Positions 11,546-25,566 of a DNA stretch of 64,000 nt are shown piece after piece. Position 1 is the first letter of the stretch. Every line of letters starts with the position of its first letter. The translations under genes were made by a program, and so were the position numbers. The notes beneath the pieces were generated by a model. That model saw only the letters and a program-made list of their open reading frames with translations, made no database searches and was not told the origin of the DNA. This DNA comes from Candidatus Thioglobus sp. NP1 (lineage in GTDB: Bacteria; Pseudomonadota; Gammaproteobacteria; PS1; Pseudothioglobaceae). Location: NCBI RefSeq assembly GCF_003326015.1, contig NZ_CP023860.1:1-64000 (forward strand), given 5' to 3'.

Positions 11546-12109
11546 TTAAGATTCTTTTTTTGCGGCTTTAGTTTTGGCTTCTTTCTTTGGTGTTGCAGTT
11601 TTAGCTTCTTTCTTTAGTGTTGCAGTTTTAGCTTCTTTCTTTGGTGTTGCAGTTTTAGCTTCTTTCTTTGGTGTTGCAGTTTTAGCTTCTTTCTTTGGAG
11701 CTGCAGTTTTAACTTCTTTCTTTGGAGCTTCAGTTACAACCTCTTCAACACTTTCAAAATCAACTAATTGAACTAAGGCCATAGGTGCTTTATCTCCAGT
11801 ACGGAAACCTGCCTTTAAGATACGTACATAACCACCAGGACGATCTTTATAAAATGGACCTACCTCAACAAAAAGTTTTGCTACCATAGCATCATCTCTT
11901 AATTTTGAAAAAATATGACGACGATTAGCGACACTATCTGATTTCGCTCTAGTAATTAAAGGCTCAACAACTCGTCTAAGTTCTTTTGCTTTTGGCAAAG
12001 TTGTTTTGATTGTCTCATGAAGTATCAGAGAATTAGCCATATTTTTAAACATAGCTTTTCTATGAGATGAATTTCTATTTAGTTGTCTACCTGACTTTCT
12101 GTGTCTCAT
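11546..12109 (-). CDS. rplQ: 50S ribosomal protein bL17 with repetitive basic C-terminal arm
   Basis: Residues 1-118 are ordinary L17 ([20 protein letters not shown] at the start; ALVQLVDFE at the end of the core), a protein near the exit of the peptide tunnel. The usual length is about 120-130 residues; this one has 187. After residue 128 comes a tail of about 60 residues made of the nonapeptide KKEAKTATP repeated about six times, with net positive charge. The reading frame is continuous and no frameshift is needed. The gene starts 9 bases after rpoA, the standard position at the end of the alpha operon. Confidence 0.96.
11561..11722 (-). repeat. 27-bp tandem repeat encoding KKEAKTATP units in L17
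   Basis: Six units of 27 bases, nearly identical, encode residues 130-183 of L17. Variation is limited (one V for A, one L for P, and a degenerate last unit). The copies are similar at DNA level, which suggests expansion by slippage or unequal exchange. Confidence 0.95.
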
Positions 12110-16459: not shown

Positions 16460-16879
16460 TTATCCCTCAACTTTTAATAAGTAAGAAACTTTATTGATCA
16501 TGCCTCTTACTGCTGGCGTATCCTCTAAAACAACTGTGTGATTAATTCTTTTTAAACCAAGCCCAGTAACCGTTGCACGATGCTTTGGAAGACGGCCATA
16601 AAAACTCTTAACCAAAGTAACGCGAACAGTTGGTTTATTAGAAGCTAGTTTCTTAGTGGTAACGTCTTTTGCCTTAACTGTCTTAGTTGACTCTATTTTT
16701 TCATTAGAAACTTTTGAAACTGTTGCTTTCTTAGGAGCTGCGGCTTTCTTAGGAGCTGCGGCTTTCTTAGGAGCTGCGGCTTTCTTAGGAGCTGCGGCTT
16801 TCTTAGGAGCTGCGGCTTTCTTAGGAGCTGCGGCTTTCTTAGCAGCTTTATTCTCTTTGTCTAACTTCTCATCAGCCAT
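16460..16879 (-). CDS. rpmD: 50S ribosomal protein uL30 with long repetitive basic N-terminal arm
   Basis: Residues 82-139 are a normal L30 ([20 protein letters not shown] to VSYLLKVEG, 58 residues), which is usually the whole protein. In front of it is an extension of about 81 residues. It contains a charged start ([16 protein letters not shown]), six copies of AAPKKA, then a K/T/S-rich linker. The extension is genuinely in frame: the only plausible start is the ATG whose A overlaps the rpsE stop (TAATG), with GGAG 6 bases upstream, and no Met lies between it and the L30 core. A histone H1-like composition suggests nucleic-acid contact, which is inference. Confidence 0.95.
16724..16831 (-). 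repeat. 18-bp tandem repeat encoding AAPKKA units in L30
   Basis: Six copies of an 18-base unit, practically identical at DNA level, encode residues 17-52 of L30. The lack of synonymous variation suggests a recent expansion. Confidence 0.96.
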
Positions 16880-23381: not shown

Positions 23382-23672
23382 CTATGAAGAGGTCGCGTCG
23401 ATCATCTGACCTTCAGATACTCTAACGACTGCTCTTTTCCAATTAACACGTTGTCCAACCCTTCCTTTGTAAATTTTCTTCTTACCTTTTACATTGGAGG
23501 TAGTAACTGATTCAACAGTAACACCAAATAGTGATTCTACTGCTGCTCCAATCTCTCTTTTATTACTATCTGTTCTAACTTTAAAAACATATTGATTATT
23601 TGCAGAAGCAAGAGTTGTCTTTTCAGTAACGATAGGTCCAAGAAGAACACTTAATACTTTTTCTTGATTCAT
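23382..23672 (-). CDS. rplW: 50S ribosomal protein uL23
   Basis: L23 stands at the tunnel exit and docks trigger factor and SRP. The 96 residues contain [11 protein letters not shown] and a C-terminal [20 protein letters not shown]. Its ATG overlaps the rplD stop by 4 bases (ATGA), so the two are translationally coupled. Confidence 0.97.
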
Positions 23673-24286
23673 AACATTGCCTCTACTTTCTTAAGTGCAG
23701 CTTTAGTTAAAACTACATTTTCATAACCAATCAAACTTACAGGATCAATACTCTGAGTATCACACACACCAACATGGTATAAATTACGAGATGAAAGATA
23801 TAAGTTTTCATCTAATTCATCTGTCATCAAAAGTGCATCTTTAAGATCCAAAGATTTCATTAACGAAGTGATATTTTTTGTTTTTGGCTCTGCAACCTCA
23901 AAATCAGATACTACTTTTAAGCGATCTTTACGCAGAAGTTCAGAAAAAATTACACTTATTGCACCTTTGTACATTTTTTTATTAACTTTTTGTGAAAAAC
24001 TTTTAGGCTGAGCAGCAAATGTAACACCACCACTTCTCCAAATAGGACCACGTGATGTTCCTGCTCGAGCTCTACCAGTACCTTTTTGCTTCCATGGTTT
24101 TTTTCCACCACCACTTACTGCAGCACGATTTTTTTGGGCTTTTGAGCCACTTCTACCACCTGCCATATAGGCAGTTGTAATTTGATGAACCAACGACTCG
24201 TTATAAGTTCGGTCAAAAATATCATCCGAAACTTCTTGAGAAGTAGATTTATTTGTTTTTAAATTTAATACTTTTACTTTCATCAT
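23669..24286 (-). CDS. rplD: 50S ribosomal protein uL4
   Basis: L4 lines the exit tunnel and in E. coli represses the S10 operon. The 205 residues include the loop [20 protein letters not shown] and [19 protein letters not shown] that reaches into the tunnel. Two ATG codons (24286 and 24283) open the frame. The space before rpsJ is too short for the long S10 leader used by E. coli L4, so that control may be absent. Confidence 0.97.
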
Positions 24287-24309: not shown

Positions 24310-25233
24310 TTAAGCCTTAGTTTCGTCATCTTTAGTATTTTCAACTTCTGCTTCAACTACTGGAGTTTCAATTGCTTCTGCTTCAACTACTGGAGTTTCA
24401 ACCGCTTCTGCTTCAACTGCTGGAGTTTCAACCGCTTCTGCTTCAACTACTGGAGTTTCAACCGCTTCTGCTTCAACTACTGGAGTTTCAACCGCTTCTG
24501 CTTCAACTACTGGAGTTTCAACCTCTTCTGCTTCAACTACTGGAGTTTCAGATAACTGTTTAGTAATTTTTGTATTTACAGTATTTTTTTTATCTGATAA
24601 GAAAACTCTTACAAAACCATTCTTAGAACCTGGTATTGCTCCTTTAACTAATAATAAATTACGCTCACTATCAACGCGAAGAATTTCAAGACACTCTTCA
24701 GTGACTTGGCTATTCCCCATCTGACCAGCCATTTTCTTACCTTTAAATACTCGCCCTGGATCTTGACACTGACCAGTTGATCCAATAGCACGGTGAGATA
24801 TTGAATTACCATGAGTTGCATCTTGCATACTAAAATTATGACGCTTTACGCCTCCCTGAAATCCTTTACCTTTTGACTGTCCAGTGACATTAACAAAATG
24901 TCCAGCGCCAAAAAATGAAATATCAAGTTTAGGTATTTCAGATGAATTTAAATCATCAGTTCTCATTTCCCATAGACCAAGGCCTATTTCTTGAGAGGCC
25001 TTTGCATAATGTCCTTTTAAAGAACTACTTACTCTTCCAATTTTAGCCTCACCTTTCTTATTTATTTTTTTACCAGTAGTAACTTGGACTGCGTTGTAAC
25101 CATCTGTTTCAATAGATTTAGTTTGAACTATACGGTTAGGTTCTATTTTAATTACACTAACAGAAGATGCCGAACCATCATCCGATAGAAGTCGGGTCAT
25201 TCCAATTTTTTGTCCTACTAGTGAAATTGCCAT
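24310..25233 (-). CDS. rplC: 50S ribosomal protein uL3 with acidic repeat tail
   Basis: Residues 1 to about 214 are a full L3 ([20 protein letters not shown] at the start; the central [19 protein letters not shown]; the loop with [20 protein letters not shown] near the peptidyl-transferase centre). L3 usually ends near residue 210. Here about 93 more residues follow, including seven units of [10 protein letters not shown] (residues 229-298), strongly acidic with no basic residue in the units. The frame is uninterrupted and ends in KDDETKA. The gene is 21 bases after rpsJ and 23 before rplD. The Gln methylated by PrmB (Gln150 in E. coli) lies in the conserved region. Confidence 0.97.
24340..24549 (-). 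repeat. 30-bp tandem repeat encoding [10 protein letters not shown] units in L3
   Basis: Seven adjacent 30-base units, almost identical, encode residues 229-298 of L3. Differences are single bases (EEV, PAVE and EAI variants). There are no spacers, so this is a coding minisatellite and not a CRISPR array. Confidence 0.96.
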
Positions 25234-25254: not shown

Positions 25255-25566
25255 TTAGTTAAGTTGGATTTTTACATCTACACCTGCAGCTAGATCTAAT
25301 TTCATTAGAGCATCTACAGTTTTATCAGTCGGACTAATTACATCCATTAACCTAACATAAGTTTTTAATTCAAATTGATCTCGAGCATCTTTATTAACAT
25401 GTGGAGAAGTCAAAACTGTAAAACGCTCCTTCTTGGTAGGCAAAGGAATTGGACCCCTTACACTTGCACCAGTCCGTTTAGCTGTCTCTACAATCTCTAC
25501 GGCAGATTTGTCGATTAATCGATGATCAAATGCTTTTAATTTAATTCTAATATTTTGATTGCTCAT
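25255..25566 (-). CDS. rpsJ: 30S ribosomal protein uS10
   Basis: S10 belongs to the small-subunit head and, with NusB, to transcription antitermination complexes. The 103 residues contain [20 protein letters not shown] and [20 protein letters not shown]. It is the first gene of the S10 segment and follows a terminator-like hairpin after tuf. Confidence 0.98.

Follow-up and report, generated by a model that had tools for sequence, protein, structure and literature searches.

In Candidatus Thioglobus sp. NP1, the rplC gene encoding ribosomal protein L3 (uL3) continues in frame past the point where L3 ordinarily ends and runs into an array of acidic repeats, raising the question of what this tail is, where else it is found and why it may be kept. 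We addressed this question using a window of 64,000 nucleotides (positions 1 to 64,000 of contig NZ_CP023860.1), together with related and more distant genomes.

The NP1 rplC gene encodes an L3 protein with a 91-residue acidic tail

Re-reading of the open reading frame recovered the gene at the coordinates and in the frame originally predicted, with the following features:

24310..25233, minus strand: rplC, ribosomal protein L3 (uL3), 307 amino acids including the acidic tail (open reading frame; Pfam PF00297; phmmer against solved L3 chains; core model against solved L3, Z 17-19)
24586..25233, minus strand: L3 core, residues 1-216, net charge +11, pI 9.75, aligning with E. coli L3 residues 1-209
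24550..24585, minus strand: linker of 12 amino acids, residues 217-228, similar throughout the family, with a short helix predicted at 217-229
24340..24549, minus strand: seven tandem 30-bp units, residues 229-298, forming 10-amino-acid repeats that are predicted to be disordered
24313..24339, minus strand: terminal NTKDDETKA following the array, resembling the D/E/K-rich ends of relatives (KDKEPEA, DKETEA, EETEDK)

The L3 domain was recognized by PF00297 (54.8 bits, cut-off 22) and by TIGR03625 (E 1.6e-71), and structural comparison of the core model with solved L3 gave Z scores of up to 19.4. The gene is single-copy (one match in a genome search) and lies in an ordinary S10 operon between rpsJ (25255-25566) and rplD (23669-24286), the start of rplD being located 23 bases downstream of rplC. 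Since the structural alignment pairs core residue 216 with residue 209 of E. coli L3, the tail begins at the ordinary end of L3 and extends 91 amino acids past the E. coli terminus. The uninterrupted in-frame extension that had been claimed is thus real, its length being 91 rather than about 93 residues when counted from residue 216. With a net charge of -22, this tail turns a protein with a basic core into one that is acidic overall (pI 5.14, net charge -11).

The description of the repeats as seven acidic 10-residue units was confirmed, each unit carrying three or four acidic residues and no basic residue. The units were also said to be near-identical in DNA, and the array is indeed homogeneous, the first six units differing on average by 1.3 of 30 bases. 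The array is far above chance, with a TRF score of 384 compared to maxima of 52 in 300 dinucleotide shuffles and 56 in 300 codon shuffles of the gene. All seven matches to the unit pattern in the 1,689,404-base genome (a single contig, 99.94% complete) fell in rplC, and no second copy that could have acted as a donor was found elsewhere in it. Pfam models for the Spt5 CTD and for extensins matched the repeat weakly and below the cut-off; these matches reflect composition only and were rejected.

The tail is predicted to be disordered and resembles known extensions

In an AlphaFold2 model of modest overall confidence built from 29 related sequences (mean pLDDT 60, pTM 0.51), the L3 barrel and a short helix at residues 217-229 were followed by a segment (residues 232-307) with a pLDDT of about 30 (all values below 50, block means 29-40), which is therefore predicted to be disordered; the barrel itself was modelled confidently. 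Solved L3 chains aligned with the core only, leaving the tail essentially uncovered by the comparison. Considering this predicted disorder, the acidic and uninterrupted tail, which is presumably translated, probably projects from the subunit, as one part of the original prediction proposed.

Extensions of ribosomal proteins are common across bacteria, mostly predicted to be disordered and of elusive function (PMC9534751). With 91 amino acids past the E. coli terminus and its predicted disorder, the NP1 tail falls within the definition used in that study (more than 20 amino acids past this terminus). The uL3 protein of M. pneumoniae (PDB 7ood chain b, 287 amino acids; PMC9534751) likewise has a C-terminal extension, of about 78 amino acids past the E. 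coli length, and 229 of its residues were modelled in the in-cell map, most of the extension being unresolved. However, it comes from an unrelated lineage, and the comparison covers its length and its unresolved state; no tandem repeat was shown in it. The tail also has the features of an electronegative cluster, being an acidic, low-complexity and predicted disordered segment on an rRNA-binding L3 core. Such clusters, for example in Nop15, are likewise acidic disordered segments on a basic RNA-binding domain, where they curb nonspecific binding to RNA and stabilise the RNA-binding proteins that carry them, although the proteins tested were eukaryotic factors of biogenesis and splicing rather than a bacterial ribosomal protein (PMC8348266). 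In the literature searched, we found no report of acidic repeat tails on L3 in the SUP05/Pseudothioglobus group and none that deals with ribosomal tandem repeats in SUP05. Ribosomal proteins with disordered extensions are already known, L3 among them, and the variant described here is an acidic, repeatedly rebuilt tandem form.

Acidic L3 tails are the norm in the family, with lineage-specific units

Searches with the L3 core in the genus and in the family, after which the loci were read, yielded 59 L3 genes with a readable end (one genome per species). A tail of at least 15 amino acids was found in 58 of these 59 genes; 54 of the 58 tails were net negative, two had a net charge of zero and two were positive. 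An acidic tail on L3, initially considered unusual, is thus the norm in this family, and in other classes of the phylum negative tails of this length were also found, in 22 of the 46 genomes examined. Median values were 57 amino acids and a net charge of -12 in the genus, and 27.5 amino acids and -3.5 in the remaining family; the median net charge of the whole L3 protein in the genus was 0. Exceptions among close relatives were the family genome G029 (11 amino acids, net +2) and a MAG titled 'PS1 clade' (L186; 5 amino acids only). G006 was rejected as a tailless relative: its frame is interrupted and an acidic APVEE-type tail can be read in the adjacent other frame.

Reading rplC in relatives, along the lines that had been proposed, revealed species with other tail lengths and other units. 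The tails of other Pseudothioglobus/SUP05-type genomes share position, linker and acidity with that of NP1 but differ in units and lengths, the latter ranging from 29 to 91 amino acids in the genus (frameshifted G006 left out). The units are lineage-specific: APVEE is found in G014, G007 and G028, VETEVVETEA-like units in G002, G005 and G018, and a non-repetitive tail of the APVEEVEETVVEASVEAVVEAPVVED type in G001, G019 and G027. The best explanation for this distribution is that the tail was gained in the family ancestor.

In a tree of concatenated core proteins, the window genome (G000) is sister to a clade comprising G003, G007, G014, G028, G006, G001, G019 and G027, with G013 placed just outside. 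Since core synonymous divergence between G000 and G013 amounts to 0.96 per site, compared to a mean of 1.3 differences per 30 bases among the first six units, the array was probably amplified or homogenised more recently than the species split. The G013 tail contains a single ETSVVEA, which looks like the seed of the seven-unit array of G000.

Three other sets of tails were also observed. In the clam-symbiont genus g5 (L080, L082, L083 and L085-L091), whose genomes are reduced, the tail measures 20-28 amino acids and is near-neutral (-3 to +1), which suggests that its acidic character has been relaxed there; together with G029 and the 'PS1 clade' MAG, these symbionts indicate that a strong charge may be dispensable in some lineages. 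The longest acidic tail (159 amino acids, net -28) was found in L189 (Candidatus Thioglobus sp. TC_Bin1; L3 gene end 2445), with degenerate VEKVE/APEATE-type repeats, at a locus where the normal L3 N-terminus is absent. L074 (G053) has a 123-amino-acid tail of mixed-charge repeats (KPAEQKVAEKPAE, NETEIKTEAKAEA) with a net charge of -10, which sets it apart from the purely acidic arrays.

Other classes of the phylum also carry acidic L3 tails

In Gammaproteobacteria outside the family, L3 extends only 0-10 amino acids past the core in 96 cases (34 sampled genomes and 62 further loci, for example from Marinobacter and Marinomonas). Of the 46 genomes that represent other classes of the phylum, probably Alphaproteobacteria for the most part, 27 carry an L3 tail of 15 or more amino acids; 22 of these tails are negative and not one is positive. 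These tails (L127-L172) are likewise C-terminal and of low complexity (19-88 amino acids, net 0 to -16), but they have an LP..(A/V)P(F/K)P-type linker, more Ala and Pro, and no perfect tandem array was seen among them. Because their linkers are unlike those of the family, parsimony makes the family tail a separate gain, and the L3 tails in the family and in other classes apparently have separate origins.

Tails evolve faster than cores but below the neutral rate

Pairwise dN/dS values ranged from 0.05 to 0.55 for tails and from 0.02 to 0.13 for cores, most tails lying above their core and all values being below 1; the tail estimates are rough, repeat units being non-independent and alignments uncertain. 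This indicates that the tail evolves under an amino-acid-level constraint that is weaker than that on the core, changing fast yet below the neutral rate.

Extension in the family is restricted to three of 26 surveyed operon proteins

A survey of 26 operon proteins (S12 and S7 lying outside the loci, S10 and L29 being recovered within the family only) identified only three with extended termini in the family: the acidic C-terminus of L3, the basic N-terminus of L30 and the mixed C-terminus of L17. An apparent N-terminal difference in S14 was attributed to start-codon choice. Two of these extensions are encoded elsewhere in the window:

16460..16879, minus strand: rpmD, L30, N-terminal basic extension of six KKAAAP units plus edges, net +17
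11546..12109, minus strand: rplQ, L17, C-terminal basic repeat tail (KKEAKTATP type), net +10

Long basic L30 N-termini are found in most of the family and are absent from the g9 genomes G061, G062, G064, G067, G068, G069 and G072. Where present, this extension is always basic (up to +21 in the family), whereas the L3 tail of the same genomes has the opposite charge; this speaks against a general bias in mutation or codon use as the only cause of the tails. The basic L17 tail is restricted to part of the genus, L17 ends elsewhere in the family being short and acidic.

Selection for charge may explain why L3 keeps its tail

We tentatively favour the possibility, which falls a little short of an even chance, that the tail is a charge-selected disordered acidic chain, shielding free L3 by electrostatics and later projecting from the 50S subunit. 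According to this model, an in-frame acidic extension of family-ancestral origin would have been rebuilt again and again as short acidic segments duplicated in tandem, an ETPVVEA-type segment having been amplified to seven copies in the G000 lineage, and it would be the negative net charge and the disorder, not the sequence, that are conserved. While L3 is still free, the chain would transiently fold back onto the core, which is basic and binds rRNA, and would so lower unspecific RNA binding and aggregation before assembly. Docking of L3 on 23S rRNA would then displace the tail, which may subsequently form a polyanionic brush projecting from the 50S surface. Selection for charge is favoured by the sign of 54 of 58 family tails, which are net negative despite units that differ between lineages, by the acidic Ala/Pro/Glu L3 tails in other classes, with none positive among 27, and by the terminus-specific nature of both extension and charge sign (acidic on L3, basic on L30). 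The tail dN/dS values below 1, the predicted disorder and the median net charge of 0 for whole L3 in the genus fit this model as well. Shielding of free L3 by its own tail is suggested by analogy with electronegative clusters (PMC8348266). If the tail simply neutralised its own core, one would expect core charge to track tail charge; no such correlation was found (rho -0.19 in the genus, 0.13 in the family), which weakens simple self-neutralisation. The near-neutral tails of the clam symbionts and the short ones of G029 and the 'PS1 clade' MAG likewise count against the model.

Nearly as likely is that the tail is a harmless disordered chain, lengthened by replication slippage at a surface-located L3 C-terminus, with selection removing just its basic or hydrophobic versions, which would make acidity a by-product without positive function. 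The change in length and unit between sister species, the recent and homogeneous array and a dN/dS that is relaxed compared to the core all fit mere tolerance, as do the M. pneumoniae extensions, mostly predicted to be disordered and largely of elusive function (PMC9534751). Yet one would then have to account for the retention of the tail by 58 of the 59 family genomes, reduced symbionts included, for extensions on just 3 of 26 operon proteins with different signs in the same genomes, and for similar acidic L3 tails elsewhere in the phylum; moreover, in M. pneumoniae, fitness or survival is affected when extensions are disrupted (PMC9534751).

The other explanations that we considered are much less probable. 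That the acidic tail docks onto a basic partner, such as the L17 repeat tail or the L30 extension, is distinctly unlikely, even if the charges in the window are suitable (-22 for the L3 tail, +10 for the L17 tail, +17 for the L30 extension) and uL3 and bL17 are in contact in the bacterial 50S (PMC4881015; PMC7804294). This contact involves an N-terminal segment of L17 and a loop of L3, and not the C-termini (PMC4881015; PMC7804294). The tail charges of L3 and L17 are uncorrelated (Spearman rho -0.01 in the genus, n=14; 0.00 in the family, n=49), which speaks against the basic-partner contact also put forward originally, and in G002, G005 and G025 both tails are even acidic, strongly so on L3 (-16 to -22) and at -5 to -8 on L17. 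The charges of L3 and L30 showed no correlation across the genus (n=15, rho -0.14) and a weak one across the family (rho -0.32, p 0.02, uncorrected for relatedness). Still less probable is a function at the nucleic-acid level, for example regulation through coupling to rplD, with the protein tail being incidental: the array does sit at the extreme end of rplC near the rplD start, but the tail mRNA is less structured than 200 of 200 shuffles (z +3.3), so that RNA structure was rejected as a conserved feature of the array. Acidity rather than nucleotide sequence is kept between species, and the array has no second copy in the genome. Finally, copy number of tandem repeats is prone to mis-assembly, but an assembly or sequencing artefact is highly improbable given an in-frame period of 30 in a single-contig, 99.94%-complete genome; acidic tails in separately assembled relatives support the existence of the tail, exact copy number aside.

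A possible but rather doubtful generalisation is that the L3 C-terminus is a recurrent site of independent polyanionic disordered tails, kept acidic by selection and rebuilt by tandem duplication, which would make L3 of the genus neutral or net acidic before assembly. In that case, L3 would serve as an assembly chaperone for itself, and the tail would tune ribosome biogenesis or ribosome surface charge to the environment. The acidic L3 tails and basic L30 extensions of the same genomes provide a natural series of lengths and charges for testing tail function in ribosome assembly, and the finding that a marine bacterial L3 can be acidic overall affects proteomics and assembly models.
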